Virus record (IMG/VR): IMGVR_UViG_3300037189_006221
Location: 1 to 37,580 of that record
Source of the DNA: a virus
Strand: one strand, 5' to 3'
Length of the DNA: 37,580 bases
The translations under genes were made by a program, and so were the position numbers. Shown one piece after another: positions 20,973 to 35,180 of this stretch. The notes beneath the pieces are model-generated. The model had not been told where the DNA came from and did no database searches. It saw only the letters and a list, made by a program, of their open reading frames with translations. Positions within the stretch are counted from its first letter, which is position 1. Each line of letters starts with the position of its first letter.

Positions 20973-22469
20973 TTAATAGTATTCAACCCTGCGACGAGGC
21001 AAATCATACTCTGCTTCATCTGTGTCAATTGTGATAAATCCACCTTGTCTAAACCTAATCAATGCTTGACTAGAAGAGTCCACAAGGTCATCGTTATCAC
21101 CATTGGGAAAAGCTGCAAGTTCTTCCATCACTTCATCTGCCCATCTAGTCTCAGGGCACCAAACAACACCTGAAGCGAAAAGATCAGAAATAGCATTTAC
21201 ACGCGCAATCTTGTCATGTCCTTTGCCTGGGGTGTACTCAGACAATGGAATACCAATCTTCCTTAATTCATAAATCAAAGGGGCACCTGCAGCCTTCTTT
21301 TCAATAATTAAGGTATCAGGCTCCCATTCCTTCCACATATCAAACGCAGCCTTCTTAAGCTCAGGAAACTCCATTCGTTTCTTAAAAGCATTTAGCAAGA
21401 TGATATTTGGTTTTAAATTACCATACTTGTCAGGATGGTAAAAAACACCCCAAGTTGTACAAGCAGAGTAGTCAGCCCTGTTTGATTTTTCAAATGCTGT
21501 GTCCCAAGACTGAATAAGATAATCACAAGAGGGTGGGTCTTCTTTTTTCCAAATCTGCCATTGATCCCTCTTGATGATCGCACCCTCTTCTGAGGTTGGA
21601 TTTTGTTGGTACTGCGCTTCCCATTTGGATACAGGTAGTTCAGCCTTGAGGGCTTCTAGCTCTTCTTTACTCCAAAACGCAGGCCATAACGGAGTACCAG
21701 AAGGAAGGATTGCAGGGAACTCAATAACTTCCCACTCATTTACACCATCCTTCTCTGAGCCTTTAAGAATCTTTCCTGTTAAATCTCTGGTACTCCATCG
21801 AGTCATAACAACAACAATGGCCCCTCCAGGCTGTAAACGCTGACGGGGGCCTGATGTGTACCACTCATACACATTATCAAAGATTGCAGGATTGTTTTGC
21901 TTTGCTTCCTGTTCACTATGAGGGTCGTCAATAATTAAAAGATCAGCACCCTTACCTGTTACAGCACCACCTACACCAATAGCAAAATAATCACCACCTT
22001 TATTGGTATTCCATCGTCCTGCAGCTTTTGAATCACTAGATAGCTTTGTATCAAAAACTTTACTATATTGTTCAGAAGAAACTAGATTTCTAACTTTACG
22101 TCCAAAGCCTACAGCCAACTCCGCAGTGTGTGCTGTTTGAATAATCTTCTTCTCCGGGAACTTACCTAAAAACCATGAAGGAAGTAAAAAAGAAGCAAAC
22201 TCAGACTTAGTATGCCTAGGCGGCATGTTAATAATTAACCGCTTCAATTCTCCAGAAGCAACTCTCTCAAAAGCATCAGCCATGATCTTATGGTGTTTAC
22301 CTGAAATAAACACCGGCCACATCTGTTGAGTAAAGAACAAAAAAGACTCTTTACACCGTTCTACACGGTCAAGCTCCATTAAAGCAAATATCTTATTTCT
22401 CTCTGCTTCAGGAACTTGATCAACAATTGCTAAATAACTAGCAATCTCTTGTTTTGTCAAAAGACTCAC
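20973..22469 (-). CDS. terL: Terminase large subunit
   Basis: This 498-residue packaging motor has a variant Walker A (MPPRHTKSE, 82-90), Walker B (LLIIDDPHS, 177-185) and coupling motif (VVVMTRWS, 219-226). The C-terminal RNase H-type nuclease uses Asp323 (QSWDTAFEKS), Glu390 and the DDLVD Asp residues (461-464). It pumps DNA into the prohead through the portal and cuts the concatemer. The start overlaps the winged-helix gene by four bases. The PPRHTKS form of Walker A and the ALxG-free C-terminus are typical of P22-like and related environmental phages. Confidence 0.95.
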   Translation of the reverse strand: MSLLTKQEIASYLAIVDQVPEAERNKIFALMELDRVERCKESFLFFTQQMWPVFISGKHHKIMADAFERVASGELKRLIINMPPRHTKSEFASFLLPSWFLGKFPEKKIIQTAHTAELAVGFGRKVRNLVSSEQYSKVFDTKLSSDSKAAGRWNTNKGGDYFAIGVGGAVTGKGADLLIIDDPHSEQEAKQNNPAIFDNVYEWYTSGPRQRLQPGGAIVVVMTRWSTRDLTGKILKGSEKDGVNEWEVIEFPAILPSGTPLWPAFWSKEELEALKAELPVSKWEAQYQQNPTSEEGAIIKRDQWQIWKKEDPPSCDYLIQSWDTAFEKSNRADYSACTTWGVFYHPDKYGNLKPNIILLNAFKKRMEFPELKKAAFDMWKEWEPDTLIIEKKAAGAPLIYELRKIGIPLSEYTPGKGHDKIARVNAISDLFASGVVWCPETRWADEVMEELAAFPNGDNDDLVDSSSQALIRFRQGGFITIDTDEAEYDLPRRRVEYY

Positions 22470-22690
22470 AGGTCTTTCTCCACAACTTTTACAGAATAAA
22501 ACTTACGTTTTGTATATTCCAAATGACCAGACTCAACAAGCCTCATAACAATCCTGTGCATATTAGACCTTGATTTCATCTTAAAACCTTTTGCTAAAGC
22601 CTCATACGATGGACTAATACCATGTAGCTTGTTATAAGCTTTAATAAAGTCCAATACAGACTGCCATCGTCTAGTCAATTTTTTAGCCAT
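22466..22690 (-). CDS. LexA-type winged-helix protein without a peptidase domain
   Basis: The 74 residues follow the LexA DNA-binding domain order: LTRRWQSVLDFIKAYNKLHG, ISPSYEALAKGFKMKSRSNM as the helix-turn-helix, then VMRLVESGHLEYTKRKFYSV as the wing. The LexA catalytic half is absent, so it could not self-cleave. It lies between the terminase subunits and overlaps terL by four bases. Inverted repeats sit immediately upstream (22698-22733), so it may regulate its own transcript. A role as a packaging cofactor is an alternative. Confidence 0.75.
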   Translation of the reverse strand: MAKKLTRRWQSVLDFIKAYNKLHGISPSYEALAKGFKMKSRSNMHRIVMRLVESGHLEYTKRKFYSVKVVEKDL

Positions 22691-22965: not shown

Positions 22966-23562
22966 CTACGCCTTCTTCTTCGTGTTATCCAGCAGACGTA
23001 AATGCCCAGACAGTTCCTTCTTCAATTGATCGGCTGTCACGACTGGTGCTGTTTCGGATGTGGATTGTGTAAATACGCCTGATGCTTTGCCGAGTAATTC
23101 AAGGGCCTTTAAACGTGATCCTTCCTGTTTATCGTTCCGACTATGCGCAACCAACTCCCTCAGCACATACCTTCGTGCCGCCGCCAAGTCATCCGACAAC
23201 GCCTCTACTGTCTGTCCCCACGCATCATTTAACATTTGGGACACCCTCGGGTGCCGACTTAATTTGTACGCAGACGATGCGATTATTTGATCTGAGCTAG
23301 TGTCGTTTGGATAAGCAGCCTTATAGGCATCCTTCATTGTCATCCCTGAAATGATGTTGTTAATAAACGCCTGCTGTGCGATGGTCAGTGGGCGTTGTTT
23401 GGGTAACCCCCTTAGTGTTCCGTCTGATCTAGGTTTTGGTCCTGGTGCGAGACTAGCTAACTGTTCCACTTCAGACTTTTCCGCGTTTTCTAGATTTAAA
23501 TCATCCTCAGCGTCTTGACGGTCTAACTCTGCCAAATAATCTCTAATCGGTGCTTTGCTCAT
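22966..23562 (-). CDS. terS: Terminase small subunit
   Basis: I choose the ATG at 23562 (MSKAPIRDYLAELDRQDAED) because GAGGT stands eight bases before it; an earlier ATG lies in poorer context. The 198 residues contain LTIAQQAFINNIISGMTMKD, AYKAAYPNDTSSDQIIASSA and LSRHPRVSQMLNDAWGQ, the helix-turn-helix and linker typical of terminase_2-type small subunits. The end is helical and basic (LLDNTKKKA). It recognises the pac/cos site and hands DNA to TerL. It is the first gene of the leftward arm, next to the origin region, where its DNA target could also lie. Confidence 0.82.
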   Translation of the reverse strand: MSKAPIRDYLAELDRQDAEDDLNLENAEKSEVEQLASLAPGPKPRSDGTLRGLPKQRPLTIAQQAFINNIISGMTMKDAYKAAYPNDTSSDQIIASSAYKLSRHPRVSQMLNDAWGQTVEALSDDLAAARRYVLRELVAHSRNDKQEGSRLKALELLGKASGVFTQSTSETAPVVTADQLKKELSGHLRLLDNTKKKA

Positions 23563-23631
23563 TTTTGAAACCTCGTTTATGCGAACGACCATACCCTTAT
23601 CAGGATAGTGCTTTGTACGCAGTGTAAACCC

Positions 23632-23675
23632 TTGTCCACAGCTTGTCCACATACTCTATCCACATCTTATCCACA
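23632..23675 (+). promoter_or_regulatory. Left DnaA-box cluster
   Basis: Four nine-base sites occur at 23632 and 23643 (TTGTCCACA), 23656 (CTATCCACA) and 23667 (TTATCCACA). The last is the perfect E. coli-type DnaA box and the others differ at one or two positions. Spacing is 11, 13 and 11 bases, close to one helical turn, so DnaA molecules would stack on one face. Confidence 0.65.
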
Positions 23676-23720
23676 AGACGTAAGCACCCGGAGTCTGCCT
23701 GTAAACCCAGGGTAAACCCG

Positions 23721-23806
23721 AGTCTTCTATAAGACCTATTCCCACTCTTATATAAGACACAAGACTAGTCTTCTATAAGACCTGACCGCAGTCTTCTATA
23801 AGACCT
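23721..23806. repeat. Four 17-bp iterons at 23-bp period
   Basis: The sequence AGTCTTCTATAAGACCT occurs exactly at 23721, 23767 and 23790; a degenerate copy at 23744 (ACTCTTATATAAGACAC) matches 13 of 17 bases. All four starts are 23 bases apart. Each copy holds the dyad GTCTT-CTAT-AAGAC, so a dimeric protein could bind each. This is the pattern of initiator-binding iterons. Confidence 0.85.
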
Positions 23807-23807
23807 G

Positions 23808-23851
23808 TGTGGATAAACCTGTGGATAACTTATGTATAACCCTGTGGATAA
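23808..23851 (-). promoter_or_regulatory. Right DnaA-box cluster
   Basis: Three perfect copies of TGTGGATAA (the complement of TTATCCACA) start at 23808, 23820 and 23843. They face the left cluster, so the two sets point towards the iterons. The gap between the last two is again 23 bases, and the intervening TTATGTATAA is a possible degenerate box. Confidence 0.7.
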
Positions 23852-24232
23852 CTTCGTTGTATAAAAGAGACAAAACGCCTAGGATCGACGAACGGACCAC
23901 GGTTGATAGCACGGTAGCTATCTGACCATTAAACGCAGCCTGGGCCGTTTTAATGCGTTCTAGGGGCATGTATGTTTAGACAGTGCTTGTGCTTTACAGG
24001 CCAGTCCAGTCTAGGTGTTTACCCTAGTCATGCCTTTTTGGTCTTTTCTGGCACGGTGGTTGCTACGCGGGCGCGCACGGGCGCACGTTGGGTAGATTGA
24101 TTGATGCTTGTCGGTCTGACGCGAGAACGACCATCACTTAGGGTAAGCACCTAGGCTATCGTGTTTACAGTGCGCGCAGCAATCGATAGCATCGGGGCTG
24201 GTTTAACAGCCCATGATGGGCATGGAGTGAAA
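23852..24232. other. Leader region of the rightward arm
   Basis: These 381 bases contain no convincing gene. They hold a hairpin GATAGC/GCTATC (23905-23922), an AACGCA/TGCGTT pair around 23932-23960, a GC-rich direct repeat (GGGCGCGCAC, GGGCGCACG) near 24069-24085, and two long inverted copies at 24008 and 24139. The region probably includes the promoter for the SprT-like/AAA+ cassette and further origin-related structure. I could not place a promoter with confidence. Confidence 0.45.
24008..24157. repeat. Pair of 19-base inverted copies 112 bases apart
   Basis: AGTCTAGGTGTTTACCCTA at 24008-24026 and TAGGGTAAGCACCTAGGCT at 24139-24157 are reverse complements at 17 of 19 positions. Each is itself partly symmetric (TAGG...CCTA). 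They bracket the GC-rich leader before the rightward cassette and could be protein-binding sites or the base of a large cruciform. Confidence 0.6.
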
Positions 24233-24745
24233 ATGAACAGAGAGCAATGGTTAATGCAGGCGGTGGAAGAACTGCGCCCACTATTCCAGGCTGCTGGATA
24301 CTCTTTGCCCACCACTGTGCGGGTTACCTGCGGGTTCCCTAGCACTGCCCGACGCAGTGGCACGTTGGGTGAAACGTGGTCCGCAGCAGACTCTGCGGAC
24401 GGCGCCACGGAAGTGATGATCAGCCCGGTACTGGCCGGCGCTGCGGATGTGCTGGCGGTGCTGCTGACACAATTGTCAGTGGCCGCTGATGGGCGTAAGC
24501 ATGCCCAGGTGCTGTCGGCTGTCGGGTCCAATCCTGATGACTATGCCGGCCTGCTGGCGGACCTGGGCGACTATCCCCATGCTGCCCTGGCACTGCCCAC
24601 CAAAGCCACTCAGGTCACCCGCATGCTGAAGGCCTGCTGCCCCTCGTGCGGTTACACCGTGCGACTCACGCAGAAATGGGTTAGCAAAGGCCTGCCCATT
24701 TGCGGCACTTGTGGTGAAGGGTTTAAATTGGAGGCTGCAGAATGA
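24233..24745 (+). CDS. SprT-like zinc-ribbon protein lacking the HExxH active site
   Basis: The start at 24233 (MNREQW) has GGAG five bases upstream; the earlier ATG at 24161 lies in the leader. The 170 residues follow SprT-like phage proteins: YSLPTTVRVTCGFPST, LGETWSAADSADGATEVMIS, the active-site helix, and a C-terminal zinc ribbon (C136-x2-C139 and C157-x2-C160) with YPHAALA and TRMLKACCPSCGY. Where the family has H-E-x-x-H (residues 79-83) this protein has TQLSV, so it cannot bind zinc there or cleave peptides. It overlaps the AAA+ gene by four bases and probably acts with it. Family placement is by remembered motif order. Confidence 0.7.
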   Translation: MNREQWLMQAVEELRPLFQAAGYSLPTTVRVTCGFPSTARRSGTLGETWSAADSADGATEVMISPVLAGAADVLAVLLTQLSVAADGRKHAQVLSAVGSNPDDYAGLLADLGDYPHAALALPTKATQVTRMLKACCPSCGYTVRLTQKWVSKGLPICGTCGEGFKLEAAE

Positions 24746-26331
24746 GCCGCGCTATTGTTTCGATTCTCAAGCACCCTGCTAGCACTGTGCTGGCTGCCGC
24801 CCGCGCACTGGGCTACACCGGGGCAGACGACAAAATGACCGCCGCAGAATGGATCGTTGTTTGCGGGCATGTCCAGGCGTTTGAGGGGCTTGTCGCGTCA
24901 GCGCAGCCGGCGCCAATCCTGGCGTATAAACCCAGCACCGCGATGGCAGCACTGCCACCCGCAAAACCTGCTAAACCTGATCCGGTGTTTGTCCCGGTTG
25001 TCAATGACTGGGGGCAGAAAGCGATGTCGGCCATTACTGCGGTGGACAATCAACTCCAGGCAGTGGTGGTGGCTGTTGCTAAGCTCACGGGTGATCTGTC
25101 GGGCATCGATTCCCGCGCTGACAGCGCAAAGCTGGCCGCCGCTACTGCCCGTTCAGAGGCTCAACGCGCAGCAACGCAGGCGGGCGACATGGTGCAGCAG
25201 GCCCGCGCCGACATGCAAAAAACCGAGACCGAATTGCGCCGCGCTATCGCTGATGCGGTGGCCCAGTTGCAGGCCCGTCCCGCGCCTGTCATTGACCCTG
25301 CTGCAGTCGCTACGGAGGTCTCCCAGGCTGTCGCTGCTGCGTTTAAACCGTTTGCCCAGGCTGTGACTGATGCCGGCGCAGAATCGACCATCGGCGCGAT
25401 GACGTCAGCTAGCATTGTTGATCGGAAAACCGCAAAACAGGTTTTCGGAGTGAATGTTAATGACGCAAAGGGCAGTCCGGTAATGGTTGATATTTGGGAC
25501 CATCCCGGCGCCCCTGCGGTTGACCCGACCTTTATTTGGTCTAAACCCATTCTGCGGCACCTGCTGCTGTCGCAATCGACGGGCGAAAATGTTTGGTTTG
25601 GTGGAGATAAGGGCACAGGTAAGTCTGAGACTGCCCGACAATTTGCTGCACGCACGGGCCGTGGATTTACACGGATTAACTTTCACAAGTATTCCGCCCA
25701 GGAGGACTATCTCGGCGCGACTGGCCTTCAAGCCGGGTCTACCGCCTTCGAGCCGCAAGCCTTTTTGAAGGCTTACACAAGCCCTAGCACGGTCATCCTG
25801 CTGGATGAAGTGACTAACGCTGATCCGGGCAATCTGGCGCCCCTGAATGGCCTGCTGGAGCCCGGCGCTGCGGTTTCAATCGGTGGTCACGTTTGGAGGC
25901 GTGCCCCGGGCGTGCTTGTCTTTGCTGCAGACAATACCCTAGGCAGTGGAGATCAGTCGGGCCGGTATGCTGGCACCCGTGAGATGAATAGCAGTCTGAT
26001 TGACCGTTTTCCTCGGATTGTGCGGTTTGATTTTCTGCCCATGAAATCGGAAGTGGAAGCTGTCGTCCGACATACTGGGTGCGTGCCCGAGTTGGCAGAG
26101 CATATTCTGCAGGCAGTTAATATCGCCCGTCAAAAAGTCACTACGGGCGATATTGTGGACGCACCCTCGATCCGCTCGGTGATCGGTTTCATCCGTGCGC
26201 TGGCGATGATGCCAGTAGAGGATGCGTGGGCCTCCAGTATTGCCGCACGCCAGCCCGCTGAGTCTGCCCTGGCGCTGGAGGCTATCCGCACGGCATCAAT
26301 TGATGAATCTAAAATTAAAGGCTGGATTTAA
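24742..26331 (+). CDS. MoxR/CobS-type AAA+ ATPase
   Basis: This 529-residue protein has an Ala-rich coiled-coil N-terminal half (about 95-180: AKLAAATARSEAQRAATQAG) and a C-terminal AAA+ domain. That domain has Walker A GGDKGTGKSE (287-296), Walker B VILLDE (351-356), a sensor-1 Asn in VFAADNT and SSLIDRF with an Arg finger candidate. The closest types are the CobS/MoxR (AAA_5) enzymes that remodel a partner carrying a VWA domain. The next gene encodes just such a partner. Codon use is clearly more GC-rich than in the structural arm. The target is unknown. Confidence 0.85.
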   Translation: MSRAIVSILKHPASTVLAAARALGYTGADDKMTAAEWIVVCGHVQAFEGLVASAQPAPILAYKPSTAMAALPPAKPAKPDPVFVPVVNDWGQKAMSAITAVDNQLQAVVVAVAKLTGDLSGIDSRADSAKLAAATARSEAQRAATQAGDMVQQARADMQKTETELRRAIADAVAQLQARPAPVIDPAAVATEVSQAVAAAFKPFAQAVTDAGAESTIGAMTSASIVDRKTAKQVFGVNVNDAKGSPVMVDIWDHPGAPAVDPTFIWSKPILRHLLLSQSTGENVWFGGDKGTGKSETARQFAARTGRGFTRINFHKYSAQEDYLGATGLQAGSTAFEPQAFLKAYTSPSTVILLDEVTNADPGNLAPLNGLLEPGAAVSIGGHVWRRAPGVLVFAADNTLGSGDQSGRYAGTREMNSSLIDRFPRIVRFDFLPMKSEVEAVVRHTGCVPELAEHILQAVNIARQKVTTGDIVDAPSIRSVIGFIRALAMMPVEDAWASSIAARQPAESALALEAIRTASIDESKIKGWI

Positions 26332-26332
26332 A

Positions 26333-27910
26333 ATGAATCTCCAAACCATTATTGGCCGCCCGCAGGTGCTGGGCTGGGAATTGCGCACCGCAATCGAGCA
26401 GGCTTTGCCACGCATCACCCAGGCGCTGGCAATCAATCCTGTTAGCGTTTTTTGGGCGCCCGGCGCCACTACGGCATCCATCGGACAGTATGGTGACATC
26501 CGGCTTCCCATGGTCAGTGATGATGCCGTTATCGGTCGGTCTATGGTGACGCGGTACGTGGGTTATATCGTCCACGAGCTTCTGCACCGCAAATATACTG
26601 ACTTTAATGTAAACGCTCCAAACGAGTATTTGGCCCGCTTCCACAATGCCGTGGAGGACGTTTGGATTGAGCGTAGGGCTGTCTCTGCTGCTTTGCTGGG
26701 CAATATTGAAAACCTTTTGTCCGGTTTGGTTGACGGTATTGTTGGCGAAGCCCTGGCACAGACTATTGATTGGACAAACCCGGCCCAGTTTCCATTCTCT
26801 TTTGCGGTGTTTGGCCGTAAATACGTTTCCCGCAAAATCCCTGTCCCGGGCAATCTGCTGTCAATTTACATTGAAGCAGACAAGCGCATTGATTCCTGTC
26901 AATCATCCGCAGACACCCTAGAAGTGGCCCGCTGGATTGTGGATCAAATTGGGAAACAAGACAGCAAGCCAAACAAGCCCAGGGAGGCCCAGGGAGGCGC
27001 GCAGGGCGACGCACAGGGGGAAGCCCAGGGCGATGCACAGGAAGGCGATCAGGAAGCCCAGGGTGACGCGAAGGAAGGCGCCCAGGAAGCCCCTGATGCG
27101 GGGCAAAGCAAGCCCCTAAACGGCAAGCACGATACGGCAGTCGAAGTGGAACCCGGCCTGCCTGCTCGCCCTGGCGATAGGGGGACGTTCTGCCGTGGAA
27201 ATAGTGTTTTGCCTGATCGGATTCACACTCCCACATGGGCATCGTATAGGTTAGAAGATTCTGATGTTCCTGCAGCACTGCGGGTTGATATTCGGAAGCT
27301 GTTTGCCAACACAGCAAACGACGATTGGCAAATGCACCGCAAAACAGGGTCAATTGATACCCGTCAATTGGCGACTGGAGGCGCCAGCATGTTTAAACGT
27401 CGTCTGGAAACCTCCGGTGTTGATTCTTCGGTTGTTATCCTGCTGGATGTTTCCGGGTCTATGTTCCCTCGCCTGATTGGACCGGCTGCAGGTGCCTGCA
27501 TGGCCCTTATGTCTGCACTTGATGGTGCTGGAGTTGAATCCGCGCTGCTTACGTTCGGCGACGGTGTTTCGACGGTCAAACCGTTTGGCAAGAATAGTCG
27601 CCAAACAAAGCAACATCTTCAACATATAAACATGGGCGGAGGAACTGATGACTATGTTGCTTTGCTGCATGCGCATAGTCTTTTGCATACCCGCAAAACA
27701 GGCCGGAAGGTTTGTTTTGTAGTGACCGACGGAGAGGGCCGTGTTTCAGAGACTAGAGCGCAAGCAAAAATTGGCGCAAACCTGGGCATTACGACCATCG
27801 GTATCGGTATTGATAAAGATGTTTCATATATTTATAAACATGCCGTGATGGTGAGAAAAGTGTCCGACCTGGGCGCCGCGATGTTCTCAAAGATCAAAGG
27901 AGTTCTTTGA
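26333..27910 (+). CDS. CobT/DUF2201-like VWA protein with zincin motif
   Basis: Starting one base after the AAA+ stop, this 525-residue protein has an N-terminal metallopeptidase-like domain with HELLH (81-85) and a downstream VEDVWIE (107-113) that could supply a third zinc ligand. An acidic/Gln linker (219-256) of AQG[D/E] repeats follows. The C-terminal VWA domain has a full MIDAS: DVSGS (372-376), Thr438 in GGGTDD, and Asp466 in VTDGEG. The layout matches CobT and the DUF2201 putative metallopeptidase-VWA proteins. With the AAA+ protein it would form a MoxR-VWA remodelling pair. Whether it is a protease is inference. Confidence 0.82.
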   Translation: MNLQTIIGRPQVLGWELRTAIEQALPRITQALAINPVSVFWAPGATTASIGQYGDIRLPMVSDDAVIGRSMVTRYVGYIVHELLHRKYTDFNVNAPNEYLARFHNAVEDVWIERRAVSAALLGNIENLLSGLVDGIVGEALAQTIDWTNPAQFPFSFAVFGRKYVSRKIPVPGNLLSIYIEADKRIDSCQSSADTLEVARWIVDQIGKQDSKPNKPREAQGGAQGDAQGEAQGDAQEGDQEAQGDAKEGAQEAPDAGQSKPLNGKHDTAVEVEPGLPARPGDRGTFCRGNSVLPDRIHTPTWASYRLEDSDVPAALRVDIRKLFANTANDDWQMHRKTGSIDTRQLATGGASMFKRRLETSGVDSSVVILLDVSGSMFPRLIGPAAGACMALMSALDGAGVESALLTFGDGVSTVKPFGKNSRQTKQHLQHINMGGGTDDYVALLHAHSLLHTRKTGRKVCFVVTDGEGRVSETRAQAKIGANLGITTIGIGIDKDVSYIYKHAVMVRKVSDLGAAMFSKIKGVL

Positions 27911-27922
27911 CCCTAGCCGCTA

Positions 27923-27940
27923 GCCCTGGTTCGCCAGGGC
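27923..27940 (+). other. Perfect hairpin after the VWA gene
   Basis: GCCCTGG-TTCG-CCAGGGC forms a seven-base-pair perfect stem with a four-base TTCG loop, 13 bases after the VWA stop. There is no T run after it, so it is not a typical terminator. It could protect the 3' end of the cassette transcript or slow the polymerase. Confidence 0.6.
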
Positions 27941-27985
27941 GTGCGAGTGGGGCCACAGTGGCAACACATACCCGGATATAAAACA

Positions 27986-28309
27986 ATGTCAAACGACGAA
28001 CTGAACGTGCAGCAGGGCGCTGCATATGAAGCACTTCGCAACGCAATCGAAGCCGCAGTGGATGCCCTGGCAAGCGCTACAACCGCAGCCAACGTCTACG
28101 CCCATGTAGTGGCACTGCAGAGCGATGACCCTGCTCAGACCCTGGCGCAGTTAGCCTGGACGAACCGGGGAAGCTGGAGCGGTGGCCCGTTGGGCAAGAA
28201 CAATCTGCAGGAGAACCTGCTGCGCGAGGAGGCTCTGCAACTGATGGTGCGCGATGAGTGGATGCGCCGCCCCTTGCGCAAGCTGCGCCCCATGAAAGGC
28301 CCGCAATGA
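27986..28309 (+). CDS. Unrecognised helical protein after the AAA+/VWA cassette
   Basis: From the ATG at 27986 the protein is 107 residues: MSNDELNVQQGAAYEALRNA, then AAVDALASATTAANVYAHVV and a basic end (RRPLRKLRPMKGPQ). It is mostly helix, with no membrane or metal motif. The ribosome-binding site is weak, and an alternative upstream start at 27941 exists but would cover the hairpin. It shares the GC-rich codon use of the cassette and overlaps the following micropeptide by four bases. Confidence 0.55.
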   Translation: MSNDELNVQQGAAYEALRNAIEAAVDALASATTAANVYAHVVALQSDDPAQTLAQLAWTNRGSWSGGPLGKNNLQENLLREEALQLMVRDEWMRRPLRKLRPMKGPQ

Positions 28310-28444: not shown

Positions 28445-28762
28445 ATGAACTTTATTAACTTGACCCCTCACGCCCTCACGATTGAGGGAATCGGCACCAT
28501 TGAGTCATCAGGCGTGGCCCGCGTCAATGTCACGGCATTCCCTAGCATCAGTGCGTCTGGTGTGCGAGTGATGAAGAATGTGTTTGGCAATGTGAGCGGG
28601 TTGCCTGCTCCTAAGACGAACACTGTTTATATCGTCTCGGCGATGGTATTGAACGCAATCGGAATCCGCGCAGGGTCTGATGTTTTTGCGCCTGATACTG
28701 GCGAAGATGCAGTCCGAAACGACAAAGGCCACATCGTGGCCGTGAAGGGTCTGGTGTTTTGA
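28445..28762 (+). CDS. Conserved small protein (INLTPH family)
   Basis: This 105-residue protein begins MNFINLTPHALTIEGIG and continues with ESSGVARVNVTAF, VRVMKNVFGNVSGLPAP, NTVYIVSAMVLNAI and SDVFAPDTGEDAVR. The pattern (INLTPH start, SG-x-AR, GLPAP, YIVS, DVFAPDT) is recurrent in phages and some bacteria, with no function that I know. GGAGATATTTAA before the ATG is a good ribosome-binding site. It is likely a small soluble beta protein. Confidence 0.7.
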   Translation: MNFINLTPHALTIEGIGTIESSGVARVNVTAFPSISASGVRVMKNVFGNVSGLPAPKTNTVYIVSAMVLNAIGIRAGSDVFAPDTGEDAVRNDKGHIVAVKGLVF

Positions 28763-29413: not shown

Positions 29414-32161
29414 TTAAAACTTATCCACTAATTCAGAATACGTTCCTGCGGTTTTGTTATATAGCAAAGCCGTCTCGCCCTGGGTGCCAACCCATCTATA
29501 TCTGCACTTCCAGACTGCAATCTCTACCATCTTGTCTGCCCGGTGGACGGTAATACCGCAGTCTGTTTTGGCCCACCATGCCATTGAATTACCAGATACA
29601 ACAACCTTGCCATTCCTCCGCGTGATGTATGCGCCTGTCGATACAGTCAAGCAATACACCTTACCTGCGTAAGGTACAACAACCATATTTCGGGCGGGTT
29701 CAACCGTTCTTTCTTTTTCATTTCTGATCATTACGATATAACGGTCGTAATGATGAGACAGCGCCCCAGCGTAGGATGAAATGTGCGCCCACATACCAAG
29801 CTCAATACATAGCCTCTGCACATCGTCTGCAAGCTGCTTGCTGGCAGTGTGATAAGTCGTATACCCTGATTCTTGTACGCTTCCGTCCCCAAAAATCATC
29901 CCGTCAAGCAACGCCTTCTTTGCTTCAATGGAAGATGACCATATCAGATTTGGAAGCCGCTTATTGGCGCAGCCTTCACCACAGTTTTCAATAACAAATT
30001 TCTGAAGCTCAGGGTTAGATCGCTTAAACATCCTGTTAACCCACATTGGCTTTTCGTATTCGCGTGCTGATTTACGAACAACGCAAGAGGATTTGACGCC
30101 AAGAGCGCTTACAACTTCCCTTGGCAGACTAGAGTTCTCATCTACTTGGCAAACTGACAGTGCGCCCATAGACACATGCCCCTCCGCTATCCAAAAACCA
30201 ACGTACCACCAGAACGGGTGGAGCGCATAGCCGTGATCAAAGTTTAAATTAGTAGGCGACGAGGCTTGGACTGGATTGCCGACCATTGGAATAGACCAGC
30301 GTGATGTGGTTACATCCTCGCTATTGCAAAAATTAAATCCTTTACTCCAAGTGCATGGACGGCCCGTCTTTTTTGACCCCTTAGTCTTCTTCCGGCTAAA
30401 TGCAGGCTTAACCAACATTCTGTGGTTTGGAGTTATCAGGAAGTCGGTTCCATTACCAGACCAGTGATGCATTGGTCCGTCATGGTCGTATTCATGGATA
30501 TGCTCCGGCAGTTCATAAAAAACATCCTGGGTATCTGGATTGAAGACGGCAACCCTATCTTCGTAGGATACTTGAGAGTGGTTGACCCATCCCCTCATCG
30601 TCAAGACTTCCGTATCTGACGAATAACACCCGCTAATGCTCATTCCATCCGGCCTGGGTTGATCGACGCCTGAACGATTGACCTTACTAGGGTGAGCAAC
30701 GAAAAATGTGTGGACATCGAACGCCTTACAGAACTTTTGAATTCTGGTCAGCATGTTACTGATTGCTTCTGTTTCTGTAGTGTTGTCCCGGGGAAGCTCA
30801 AGATAGTTATAAGGGTCAATCACCAAACCCCGGATTCCCATACGCTTTACACCGACCCTTGCTCTGTCAAGGATTGAGTCTAGGGTCGATGGTTCCTCTC
30901 CGTTTGAGTCGATGAATAGGAAGTGGTCATTCACCCAGTCAAGCGCAGCAGACTTTTCTGAATGAGACATGCGGTCCTTACCCTCAAAGAACCGTTTACC
31001 CGTGTAAATCTCCATCAGCCGGGATATATGAATCTCGGGTTGATTCTCAAAGCTACAAACCGCAAACTTCCAGTCATCTTTCCTGGCAATGTTTACCATC
31101 ATTTGATCAACGAAATTACTTTTGCCCGATGACGGATAACCCGTCACGACCGTAAGCTGCCCAGGTGCAACTGTGTAAATCTGGTCAACCGAGGAATATC
31201 CAGTCGAGAATCCCTTGCCTGTTCCTTTGGCGTATAAATCATTCAGCCTGTCTTCATACGAGGCTGCGATGGTCAGGCCGGCGATTGGATACGGCGCGGC
31301 AGCATCAATAATTTCATTAACCCTGACCCTCCCCGTCCGTGATGGGTCATTCCGTGATGGGTCAAGGAAGACTTCATTCAGGTCTTTACTAGAGAACTTT
31401 GCAATCCTGCATTTCTCTTTGCCAATTCTGCGTGCCAGTTCTTCGGCTAACGCTTGGCCGGGACCATCCTGGTCTGTTGCTAATACTACATACGGTGCTG
31501 CGTCCAGTATCTCCCGCGCATTCCATACATAAGCAAACTTTTTATCCTCAGACGGCAGTACCTTTCCATCTGCGACTTTGATTGGCGCCCCGGAAGGCAC
31601 ACTAACTGCATTTAAAACTCCAGACTCAATCAATGTCAGGCAATCAATCTCACCTTCGACAATGATGATTGGCTTGCCTTTTTCTACAAGGTCAATACCA
31701 AAGAAGTCATGCGCACCCCCGGCGTCTTGTGTAAAATCCTTTTCAGGGAACGATCTATATTTGGCAGATACTAACGCCCCGTTCCTGAAATAAGGAAAAC
31801 CAATTGCATCTGCGGTTTTGTTTAGGCGACTAAAGAATTTATCCGCAGCAAATAACTGCATTTTGTCTGCGGTTTCTTTAGTTATACCCCTTGTAAGTAA
31901 ATAAGCATAATGTTTTTCTTCTAACTTATTACTGATAATTTCTTTAGTCACTATAGCTGCCAATTTAAACTCCCGTTTGGTCTTTGGTTGTATAGCGCCT
32001 GTCTCTTGACAGTGGTGACAGTAGTAAAGAACTGCCCCGTCACCCTTGCGGGTGAGCGTCATGTCTTTTGCCCTGCTGTTTTTTCTGTCTCCCGAGCATG
32101 CGGGGCAGGCTACTCTCGTTGATTCATTGAAGTCAAATTGCTCAATGAACTCAGGTGTCAT
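29414..32161 (-). CDS. T7 gp4-like primase-helicase with in-frame intein
   Basis: The 915-residue precursor has an N-terminal zinc site (C19-x2-C22, C48-x2-C51) and a Toprim domain with VEGEID (168-173) and DQD (230-232). Its RecA-type helicase has Walker A GYPSSGKSN (341-349), Walker B GLVIDPYNYLE and VAHPSK (488-493). A 347-residue intein (512-858) interrupts the helicase DNA-contact motif SISG|SMAWW. The spliced protein would have 568 residues, the usual size. It unwinds the fork and lays primers. It overlaps the upstream small HNH gene by four bases. Confidence 0.92.
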   Translation of the reverse strand: MTPEFIEQFDFNESTRVACPACSGDRKNSRAKDMTLTRKGDGAVLYYCHHCQETGAIQPKTKREFKLAAIVTKEIISNKLEEKHYAYLLTRGITKETADKMQLFAADKFFSRLNKTADAIGFPYFRNGALVSAKYRSFPEKDFTQDAGGAHDFFGIDLVEKGKPIIIVEGEIDCLTLIESGVLNAVSVPSGAPIKVADGKVLPSEDKKFAYVWNAREILDAAPYVVLATDQDGPGQALAEELARRIGKEKCRIAKFSSKDLNEVFLDPSRNDPSRTGRVRVNEIIDAAAPYPIAGLTIAASYEDRLNDLYAKGTGKGFSTGYSSVDQIYTVAPGQLTVVTGYPSSGKSNFVDQMMVNIARKDDWKFAVCSFENQPEIHISRLMEIYTGKRFFEGKDRMSHSEKSAALDWVNDHFLFIDSNGEEPSTLDSILDRARVGVKRMGIRGLVIDPYNYLELPRDNTTETEAISNMLTRIQKFCKAFDVHTFFVAHPSKVNRSGVDQPRPDGMSISGCYSSDTEVLTMRGWVNHSQVSYEDRVAVFNPDTQDVFYELPEHIHEYDHDGPMHHWSGNGTDFLITPNHRMLVKPAFSRKKTKGSKKTGRPCTWSKGFNFCNSEDVTTSRWSIPMVGNPVQASSPTNLNFDHGYALHPFWWYVGFWIAEGHVSMGALSVCQVDENSSLPREVVSALGVKSSCVVRKSAREYEKPMWVNRMFKRSNPELQKFVIENCGEGCANKRLPNLIWSSSIEAKKALLDGMIFGDGSVQESGYTTYHTASKQLADDVQRLCIELGMWAHISSYAGALSHHYDRYIVMIRNEKERTVEPARNMVVVPYAGKVYCLTVSTGAYITRRNGKVVVSGNSMAWWAKTDCGITVHRADKMVEIAVWKCRYRWVGTQGETALLYNKTAGTYSELVDKF
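29588..30628 (-). mobile_element. LAGLIDADG intein in the helicase
   Basis: The inserted segment begins CYSSDTEVLTMRGW (block A, Cys1) and has block B FLITPNH. It carries two LAGLIDADG-type helices (WWYVGFWIAEGH and LLDGMIFGDGS) and ends VYCLTVSTGAYITRRN then GKVVVSGN, with Ser as the first residue after it. Cys1, the terminal Asn and the +1 Ser are the catalytic residues for splicing. The usual penultimate His is Gly. The endonuclease acidic residues in the two helices are intact (E660, D760 region), so it may still be an active homing element. Confidence 0.9.
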
Positions 32162-32868: not shown

Positions 32869-33348
32869 CTACTCCCCCGGCTCCGGGTCGCAGGCTCTGT
32901 CTCCCCGGGTCTTAGCCCTCACCTTGCTTACGCTTGGTGGGGGCCTTTTTTTGGGCGCCACATCTTCCATAGGCTCGATCAGGATGTCCGTCCTGGGCGA
33001 CACAGGATCAAGATGCCAGTAGATGTGCTTCTCCTTTACCTGCCTGTCGTTGATGTAAACAACGTCTTGAAGTAGATCAAGAATCAAAGACTCATCTAGG
33101 TCAGGGCGTCTACTCGCATAGTAGATGTGCAAGGTCACCCGTACATCACAACTCAACAACGGGCTACATCGCTTGCACTGTCGTTTAAATGACTCAGAGT
33201 AGGTCAACGCCTTCTCTGACTTGATCAGTCTTGACATCCCGCCGTACCGCACCACACGACGACTGTTCGCCTTGCTGGCCGGCTCATCAAAAATTGTTTG
33301 CGATAGTGCTTGCGCGCCATCATTGCGTGTGCTATCGTCTAGGCTCAT
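32869..33348 (-). CDS. RusA-like Holliday junction resolvase
   Basis: From the ATG at 33348 the protein is 159 residues. It has the RusA order: EPASKANSRRVVRYGGMSRL, a helix, then VTLHIYYASRRPDLDESLIL, DLLQDVVYINDRQVKEKHIY and PRTDILIEP. The acidic residues of RPDLDES and INDRQ form the metal site, with the usual Asn of D-x-D-N replaced. RusA dimers cut four-way junctions made during recombination or replication. It stands back-to-back with the exonuclease gene (13 bases apart). The ribosome-binding site is weak, so the start is not certain. Confidence 0.82.
   Translation of the reverse strand: MSLDDSTRNDGAQALSQTIFDEPASKANSRRVVRYGGMSRLIKSEKALTYSESFKRQCKRCSPLLSCDVRVTLHIYYASRRPDLDESLILDLLQDVVYINDRQVKEKHIYWHLDPVSPRTDILIEPMEDVAPKKRPPPSVSKVRAKTRGDRACDPEPGE
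33310..33338 (+). promoter_or_regulatory. Weak promoter candidate for the recombination operon
   Basis: TTGCGC, a 17-base spacer and TATCGT (with TG one base upstream of it) occur just before the exonuclease gene, inside the RusA start. An inverted pair CGATAG/CTATCG (33301-33306 and 33332-33337) frames it and could be an operator. Consensus match is modest. Confidence 0.3.
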
Positions 33349-33361
33349 TGAAGGAGTTCTT

Positions 33362-34216
33362 ATGAAGGTGACCAACAAGCACAACGCACCAGCTACGCTG
33401 ATGACGTTGGCAACCACTGAATACTACAGCAAGGGTGCTGCGCAGTATTCTGTAACAGAGATCATGGGGCCACCCAAGATCAGGAGGCTAAGGGAGCAGT
33501 ACAACGAGCAAATCACTACCGACGTCTCAGACATGCTGTGGCAGCTTCTAGGCTCTGCCCTACATGTAGTGATGGAACGCGGACAGACCGAGAACCATAT
33601 CACCGAAGAACGCTTGTTCACTGTTGTAAATGGTGCAACCATCAGCGGGCAGATCGACCTCCAGGAAGTCACCCCTCAAGGGATCATCATCACCGACTAC
33701 AAGTTGACAAGTGGCTGGGCAGTGATGCAGAACAAAGCTGAGTGGGAAGAGCAGCTTAACATTTACAAATGGCTGGTCGAGGTAGCTAAGAAAGAGAAAG
33801 TCACTGCGCTTTACATCTGCGCTTTGATCCGGGACTTTGACAAGCACAGCAACAAAGAAGGTTATCCAGAAGCCCCGATCCACATGCTTAGTATCCCCAT
33901 GTGGACCGCTGGAAAGGCTCAGGCTCACGTAGAACAACGCATTGCCCTCCACAGTGCAGCCAAGGCAAAACATGAGCTTGGAGAGCCTTTAGACGACTGC
34001 ACAGACCAAGAGCGATGGATGTCTGAACCTGTCTTTGCTGTTAAGCGAGAAGGTAGGAAGACGGCCATCAAGTTGTTTACATCTAAAGAAGCAGCAGAGG
34101 AGTTGGCAATCAAAGAAAAAGGTTATGTTGAAACGCGCCTTGCAGAGCCTAAGCGATGCACAGGTAATTACTGCGGTGTCGCAGAGTGGTGTACTCAATA
34201 TCAGGAGTCAAAGTGA
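33362..34216 (+). CDS. PD-(D/E)XK exonuclease (RecB/Cas4-like)
   Basis: GGAGTTCTT precedes the ATG at 33362, giving 284 residues; the longer open frame upstream overlaps RusA and is rejected. The nuclease core is visible: His68 (GSALHVVME), Asp99 (SGQIDL), the Asp112-x-Lys114 pair (TDYKLTSG) and Gln131/Tyr135 (QLNIYKW). Near the C-terminus C266, C271 and C277 could, with C213, hold an iron-sulphur cluster as in AddB/Cas4 proteins. It would resect double-strand ends for the annealing protein encoded two genes downstream. Its stop overlaps the next start (GTGA). Confidence 0.85.
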   Translation: MKVTNKHNAPATLMTLATTEYYSKGAAQYSVTEIMGPPKIRRLREQYNEQITTDVSDMLWQLLGSALHVVMERGQTENHITEERLFTVVNGATISGQIDLQEVTPQGIIITDYKLTSGWAVMQNKAEWEEQLNIYKWLVEVAKKEKVTALYICALIRDFDKHSNKEGYPEAPIHMLSIPMWTAGKAQAHVEQRIALHSAAKAKHELGEPLDDCTDQERWMSEPVFAVKREGRKTAIKLFTSKEAAEELAIKEKGYVETRLAEPKRCTGNYCGVAEWCTQYQESK

Positions 34217-34482
34217 AAAAACTACTTGCAGATTTTAGTATGGCTTCCGGTTTGTTAATAAAGCATATCGGTGGTTTTCACCCATCATACAACCCTCTTC
34301 GCAGAGAAGTTGATGGGTTTACATATGACGAAGAGCTTCAAGAACCCGGCGTTATTAGCGCTGTAGCTACAACTTACACAAGTTGCGATTTGCGAGAATT
34401 TGCTGCAGCTTTTATTGAAGTTGCAGACTGGCTGGATAAGCGCGCAGAACTGGCGCAGCTTGAACTGGAGAAGTCGAAGTGA
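34213..34482 (+). CDS. Small protein between exonuclease and annealing protein, GTG start
   Basis: AGGAG lies five bases before a GTG at 34213 that overlaps the exonuclease stop (GTGA), giving 89 residues. It reads KKLLADFSMASGLLIKHIGG, then FTYDEELQEPGVISAVATTY and an acidic helical end (LDKRAELAQLELEKSK). I do not recognise it. Its place and coupled translation make a partner of the exonuclease/annealing pair possible. Confidence 0.6.
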   Translation: MKKLLADFSMASGLLIKHIGGFHPSYNPLRREVDGFTYDEELQEPGVISAVATTYTSCDLREFAAAFIEVADWLDKRAELAQLELEKSK

Positions 34483-35180
34483 ATGCCAATGATCTTTTGA
34501 AGCTCAATGTAAATGATCACGTTGAGAAGAAGAATGGCCTAAGCTATCTTTCATGGGCCTGGGCCTGGGCCGAGGCTTTGAAGGCTGACCCTACAGCAAC
34601 GTTCCACGTTGAGTCCTATGAAGTTGACGGGCAAACGCAGTGCTACATGGATGTAAACGGAACTGCGATGGTGTGGGTGCGGGTCACCATGTTTGGTAAA
34701 CCCATGACTTGTATGCTTCCGGTGATGAACTCAAAGAATGAACCCATCCCACTGATAGGACGGACGTTCAAAGACAAGTTTGGTAAGGATAAGACAGAGA
34801 GGGTTGATGCCTTCAATGTCAACTCCGCAATCATGCGTTGCATGACCAAGGCTTTGGCCCTACATGGTCTTGGCCTTTACATCTATGCCGGAGAAGACCT
34901 GCCGGAAGAAGATGACAAGAAGGAAGACAAGAAGGAAGACAAAAAAGAAGAGCGAAAAGTTGACGAAAAAGCAACAAAAGCCCCTAAGAGCGATGCTGAT
35001 ATTGAGTTGTTTGCTAAGAGCATGATCGAGTACACTCTTTTTTCAAAGACAGCAAGCGGACTGAATTCATTCTGGATTGCCAACAAAGCGCAGCTAGATG
35101 AACTGAAGGTGTCGCATCCCGGGTTGTATGCAACGGTTCTTGATTCTTTTAAGGCTGCTAAGGCCGCAATTGGAGAGTAA
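34479..35180 (+). CDS. Single-strand annealing protein (DUF1071/Sak3-like)
   Basis: The 233-residue protein starts with GTG (again GTGA overlap). Its N-terminal domain has YLSWAWAWAEALKADPTATF, VDGQTQCYMDVNGTAMVWVR, IPLIGRTFKDKFGKDKTERV and NSAIMRCMTKALALHGLGLY, the layout of DUF1071/Sak3 recombinases. A Lys/Glu repeat linker (KKEDKKEDKKED, about residues 145-160) leads to a helical C-terminal domain. Such proteins anneal complementary strands after resection. The exonuclease upstream and the SSB-like protein downstream complete a typical recombination operon. Confidence 0.85.
   Translation: MNANDLLKLNVNDHVEKKNGLSYLSWAWAWAEALKADPTATFHVESYEVDGQTQCYMDVNGTAMVWVRVTMFGKPMTCMLPVMNSKNEPIPLIGRTFKDKFGKDKTERVDAFNVNSAIMRCMTKALALHGLGLYIYAGEDLPEEDDKKEDKKEDKKEERKVDEKATKAPKSDADIELFAKSMIEYTLFSKTASGLNSFWIANKAQLDELKVSHPGLYATVLDSFKAAKAAIGE

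Follow-up and report, generated by a model that had tools for sequence, protein, structure and literature searches.

A conserved SprT, AAA+ ATPase and zincin-VWA gene cassette beside a putative replication origin in an uncultured podovirus-like lineage

Systems that combine an AAA+ ATPase with a VWA domain bearing a metal ion-dependent adhesion site (MIDAS) include NorQ-NorD, CbbQ-CbbO, RavA-ViaA and midasin. To our knowledge, none of their VWA partners is fused to a zincin. Such a fusion is found in the trio of genes described here, which lies in the 37,580-base IMG/VR viral record IMGVR_UViG_3300037189_006221; the whole record was analyzed and is referred to below as the window. The trio encodes a SprT-family protein, a MoxR/CobS-type AAA+ ATPase and a CobT-like zincin-VWA protein. 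The latter two genes correspond to a MoxR/vWA-metallopeptidase pair reported in group 2.2 jumbo phages (Iyer et al. 2021, PMC7824862) and, as cobS/cobT (cobST), in cyanophages and across tailed viruses (PMC8651126). Pair and trio both combine a CobS-group ATPase with a VWA protein whose N-terminal domain carries HExxH, a fusion seen in the window as in the jumbo-phage family, and profile matches extend to S-PM2, OspM_OC, ICP2, SSU5 and other phages. The trio differs in that a SprT gene always precedes the pair, with a dead active site in the lineage of the window, in that the zincin and VWA domains are encoded separately in one subclade, and in its location by a cluster of DnaA boxes. In pelagimyophages, sprT, cobS and cobT have been reported as separate genes (PMC7029224), and no description of a SprT-containing trio was found in the open-access literature. 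As far as our searches of that literature reach, the pair is known, and what is new is its fixed combination with SprT, the variant with split genes and the lineage in which SprT is dead. An earlier interpretation of the DNA letters (the sequence-only reading) had singled out the trio as a candidate for an undescribed system, which appears to hold for the unit with SprT and does not for the pair, already reported in the two studies cited above.

The features of the locus are as follows.

23632–23851, no strand: putative replication origin or control region, with seven DnaA-box-like sites and spaced direct repeats over 220 bases
24233–24745, plus strand: SprT-family protein of 170 residues with a C-terminal zinc ribbon, predicted to be catalytically dead (PHROG 6361, family alignment, AlphaFold)
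24467–24481, plus strand: decayed SprT active site TQLSV, residues 79–83, where relatives have HExxH
24742–26331, plus strand: MoxR/CobS-type AAA+ ATPase of 529 residues with a variable N-terminal region (AAA_5, PHROG 249 and CobS matches)
26333–27910, plus strand: zincin-VWA (CobT-like) protein of 525 residues (VWA_2 and CobT_C matches; structural matches)
26573–26671, plus strand: gluzincin-type motif HELLH ... HNAVEDVWIE, residues 81–113, invariant in 24 of 24 sequences
27446–27460, plus strand: MIDAS core DVSGS, residues 372–376, invariant in 25 of 25 sequences

The three open reading frames are tightly packed on the plus strand, starting at 24233, 24742 and 26333. The first two overlap by four nucleotides (ATGA), and a single nucleotide separates the second from the third. 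A 60,008-base contig is identical to the window across the trio. Co-occurrence of the three genes was counted over 60 distinct viral contigs: the SprT gene lies immediately upstream of the ATPase gene in all 55 contigs where this could be assessed, and the zincin/VWA gene lies downstream of it in all 48. Trio contigs whose flanks are covered share terminase (64–100% identity) or primase-helicase genes with the window, in the same arrangement, so that many independent associations of the three genes were rejected; the three genes form a core unit of one viral lineage. This lineage is uncultured and podovirus-like, and the large terminase of the window is 55–59% identical to its counterparts in Pelagibacter phage HTVC027P and phage DSL-LC04. 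No trio was detected by profile in the 25–29 kb examined near the terminases of these two cultured relatives. A search for cellular homologues, consisting of one genome scan with a single motif, gave only a 5.2 kb contig of a Burkholderiales metagenome-assembled genome, with a phage terminase alongside. The SprT gene also occurs without the pair, in actinophages UtzChips and UNTPL and in three further contigs (L062–L064), where no ATPase or VWA gene is nearby.

The GC content of the trio (0.53–0.61) is higher than that of its flanks (about 0.46; region 24001–28000). Most relatives have the same offset, so that it is a lasting property of the trio genes; recent horizontal acquisition was rejected on the same grounds.

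By its sequence matches, the second protein falls in the AAA_5/MoxR/CobS group (AAA_5, 1.1e-12; PHROG 249, 7.9e-37; NCBIfam CobS, 2.9e-15, far below the cut-off of that model), and its profile retrieves structures of midasin, CobS, NorQ and CbbQ. Walker A, Walker B, sensor and arginine finger are all present, and G288, G291, G293, K294, D355, E356, N398 and R422 are invariant across 36 sequences.

The third protein matches VWA_2 (2.2e-11) and CobT_C (1.4e-8). Its N-terminal zincin domain contains an HExxH motif followed by a glutamate 23 residues on, in the pattern HExxH...NxxED...E, and all residues of this pattern (H81, E82, H85, N105, E108, D109 and E113) are invariant in the 24 aligned sequences. 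The MIDAS residues D372, S374 and S376 (DxSxS) are likewise invariant in 25 sequences. The predicted structure (predicted local distance difference test score, pLDDT, 78; predicted template modelling score 0.72) has as its best structural matches the VWA domain of NorD and the MIDAS domain of human MDN1. The zincin and VWA domains, fused in the window, are encoded by two adjacent genes in 11 loci of a divergent subclade (L040, L043, L045, L048, L050, L053, L054, L056, L059, L060 and L065), with the order SprT-ATPase-zincin-VWA. The two domains can thus be separated, and that they are fused in the clade of the window argues for their joint action. Pairs in other phages show decay of the zincin as well: in Pseudomonas phage Nican01 and Stenotrophomonas phage ANB28, the CobT-like protein (L077, 2439–4520, and L083, 5983–7968, respectively) has no HExxH, unlike its relatives.

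The first protein introduces a kinship with the SprT/SPRTN/Wss1 metalloproteases, a family that removes proteins from DNA; Wss1 and SPRTN work with an AAA+ unfoldase, which provides a conceptual parallel to the trio. This kinship is traced through the relatives of the window protein and is also seen in its C-terminal zinc ribbon. The only good match of the window protein itself is PHROG 6361 (7e-29), and none of the Pfam SprT models matched it; 33 of 50 aligned family members match Pfam SprT-like (PF10263) with E-values of 0.01 or better, mostly below the curated cut-off. We thus assign the protein to the SprT family through alignment to its relatives. Its AlphaFold model is well defined (pLDDT 89), but a Foldseek search with it gave no confident match in the PDB (best E-value 0.34), the minigluzincin 4jiu and Wss1 being recovered weakly. 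The start codon at 24233 is supported by relative L033, in which a stop codon in the upstream frame overlaps the corresponding start; a longer protein beginning at the GTG at 24161 was rejected for this reason.

HExxH is kept in 44 of the 50 aligned SprT proteins and is lost in the window (TQLSV), L033 (AQLAV), L034 (IQLCL), L030 (AQLCH), and L035 and L036 (both GALAH). The zinc-ribbon cysteines are still present in the window protein. The proteins of the window and L033 are 88% identical, and their genes differ by 60 synonymous and 31 nonsynonymous changes, corresponding to a ratio of nonsynonymous to synonymous substitution rates (dN/dS) of 0.129. The second dead pair, L035 and L036, has a dN/dS of 0.045, and pairs with intact sites range from 0.04 to 0.14. 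The gene is therefore maintained by purifying selection without its catalytic site. The SprT tree allows a single loss of HExxH (support 58/93); on the ATPase tree, three changes are required, and well-supported branches force at least two of them. Of the loci with a dead SprT, the window, L030, L034, L035 and L036 keep HELLH in the third protein, and the L033 contig ends before the zincin. A conserved dead-protease subunit poses a clean question about the roles of SprT-family proteins besides cutting.

Upstream of the trio, four exact copies of TTATCCACA and three copies with one mismatch form the DnaA-box cluster at 23632–23851, accompanied by direct repeats of 38 nucleotides (23721–23804) and 22 nucleotides (23810–23854). 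The window as a whole contains 24 DnaA-box matches, compared to 8.7 expected, and none of 100 shuffled sequences reached that number. DnaA boxes are seen again upstream of the trio in many relatives. The trio is the first operon of the rightward arm, with the leftward structural arm on the other side of the putative origin; the gene for the small terminase subunit is located just upstream on the opposite strand. Several proposals of the sequence-only reading are borne out by these results. The frames, order and motifs of the three genes, including HELLH and MIDAS, are as it described, although it made no mention of the missing HExxH in the SprT-like protein, and the co-occurrence that it asked for in relatives is found, within one viral lineage. 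Its interpretation of the ATPase and VWA proteins as a MoxR-VWA remodelling system gains support from the Walker, arginine-finger and MIDAS residues and from the adjacency of the two genes. The DnaA boxes and direct repeats agree with its placement of the trio beside an origin, itself putative; the trio is also first in the rightward arm, as it stated, and would act early.

The ATPase-VWA pair is also found without SprT in unrelated phages, such as S-PM2, ICP2, SSU5 and RHEph10, usually within blocks of replication genes. Its order in S-PM2 is gp47-gp46-VWA-ATPase-gp45-gp44; in OspM_OC it is near gp46/47, sliding-clamp and clamp-loader genes, likewise between gp46 and gp45 homologues. The pair adjoins the gene for DNA polymerase III alpha in RHEph10, Nican01 and ANB28, lies between ligase and DNA polymerase genes in SSU5, and precedes primase, helicase or polymerase genes in ICP2 and T5S1, two phages in which the virion genes that could be identified occupy the other arm. 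Several of these comparison phages are related to one another, and we regard the replication-gene context, as a pattern, as suggestive.

We propose, with a probability of about one half, that the operon encodes a remodelling protease of the MoxR-VWA kind, equipped with an adaptor derived from SprT, that works early, at or near replication. This proposal is based on the fixed gene order and packing, the invariant ATPase, zincin and MIDAS residues, the structural matches to NorD and MDN1, the occurrence of split zincin and VWA genes, and the retention of a dead SprT alongside an intact zincin. It also draws on the DnaA boxes upstream of the trio and on the location of the pair among replication genes in eight phages (S-PM2, OspM_OC, RHEph10, Nican01, SSU5, ANB28, ICP2 and T5S1). 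CbbQO, NorQD and midasin are MoxR-VWA machines that serve as the mechanistic analogy. We infer from these observations a complex, its proteolytic activity, its timing and its target. The MoxR-type protein would form a hexamer, on which the VWA protein, by analogy, would dock and grip a target through its MIDAS, and the fused gluzincin domain may then cleave or trim this target once it is remodelled. As an accessory, the SprT-family protein, with its SprT fold and zinc ribbon, could recognize the substrate or DNA; originally a second protease, it would persist in the lineage of the window as an adaptor without catalytic activity. The complex would act early at or near the origin and fork, most likely stripping or processing a DNA-bound protein or one of the replisome, a target suggested by the placement of the trio by the origin and replication genes.

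Several observations weigh against this proposal. All trio contigs belong to one lineage, and elsewhere the pair stands without SprT: profile searches detected no SprT in the complete genomes of ICP2 and T5S1, nor in 50 of the 57.7 kb of CRP-810. The pairs of Gordonia phage Kvothe and mycobacteriophage Loadrie have no clear replication neighbors. In ICP2, 26% of genes have a core replication gene within 1 kb of them, and 35% have one within 2 kb. Proteolysis is also not universal, given the loss of HExxH from the CobT-like proteins in Nican01 and ANB28.

The position of the locus also bears on two other explanations. A role in virion assembly or maturation, in which capsid or tail proteins would be chaperoned and proteolytically processed, has been proposed for the group 2.2 jumbo-phage pair by analogy with a MoxR-vWA pair required in tail assembly of Acidianus two-tailed virus (PMC7824862), and the neighboring small terminase gene would fit it. 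However, the trio is transcribed away from the structural arm, the pairs of ICP2 and T5S1 are in the replication arm, opposite the identifiable virion genes, and those of S-PM2 and OspM_OC are embedded between gp46 and gp45 homologues; we regard such a role as quite improbable. Somewhat better placed, but still unlikely in our estimate, is an early machine for host takeover or counter-defence that dismantles or degrades a host complex, such as RNA polymerase, nucleoid proteins or a defence complex. The trio is the first operon of its arm, and SprT-like and other metallopeptidases of jumbo phages have been proposed to cut host proteins (PMC7824862). A host-specific effector would be expected to be patchy, whereas the trio is conserved throughout its lineage and the pair is found inside the replication blocks of unrelated phages; PADLOC gave no match of note. 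The sequence-only reading had left the choice between host takeover and replication proteins. The context of the pair in unrelated phages favors replication at least as strongly as takeover.

Phage CobS/CobT-like pairs have repeatedly been reported as metabolic genes and cited for virus-boosted synthesis of vitamin B12 in the host, and a cobalamin role has been proposed for such genes (PMC8651126, PMC5083919, PMC11288001). Under this explanation, the trio proteins would be cobaltochelatase subunits that raise the cobalamin supply for DNA precursor synthesis. By profile, the CobS-CobT aerobic cobaltochelatase is indeed the closest named subfamily for both proteins, and solved CobT and CobS structures are their top sequence matches. 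Viral cobST has been suggested to work with a host CobN (PMC8651126), and T5S1 carries a ribonucleotide reductase. However, the trio proteins score far below the NCBIfam equivalog cut-offs (CobS, 56 against 559 bits; CobT, 25 against 759 bits). None of the 27 trio contigs examined for CobN, many of which are fragments, contained it, while positive controls were found in five genomes, and a host CobN is possible; no ribonucleotide reductase was found in 24 trio contigs, again with many fragments, while positive controls were detected. Nor is any chelatase role known for an intact zincin motif or for a SprT partner. We consider a cobaltochelatase function very improbable, and the usual label of "vitamin B12 genes" is probably wrong for the trio. 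Taken with the location among replication genes, the conservation of the protease motif, the presence of SprT and the lack of CobN and reductase genes on the contigs speak for another function, which cultured phages that carry the pair (cyanophages, ICP2 and SSU5-like phages, of which PhiR41_1 is listed with an E. coli K-12 host) make directly testable.

The eukaryotic p97-SPRTN/Wss1 partnership removes proteins from DNA. A broader and distinctly tentative extension of our proposal, which we think doubtful as a whole, is that phage "CobS-CobT" may generally be a replication-associated AAA+ remodelling protease, to which the podovirus lineage added a SprT subunit that later became a pseudoprotease adaptor, producing a viral parallel of this partnership.

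Other regions of the genome show additional features. A gene just downstream of the trio, found there in the window virus only (28445–28762, plus strand), encodes a small protein matching PADLOC Unk_01, "unknown small protein, sometimes fused to CARF" (4.9e-17). The primase-helicase (29414–32161, minus strand) contains a LAGLIDADG intein at residues 512–857, which is present only in the window virus and its 60 kb sibling; the gene is uninterrupted at this point in about 28 other relatives. The small terminase subunit (22966–23652, minus strand) diverges far faster than the large subunit (20973–22469, minus strand), with identities of 34–74% versus 64–96% across the same contigs. Between the two terminase genes, a protein with a LexA-type DNA-binding domain (22466–22690, minus strand; PF01726, 2.2e-8) is conserved in most relatives. 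A Sak-type single-strand annealing protein (34479–35180, plus strand; PF06378, 1.8e-39) adjoins a PD-(D/E)XK nuclease (33221–34216), and the two likely constitute a recombination module.

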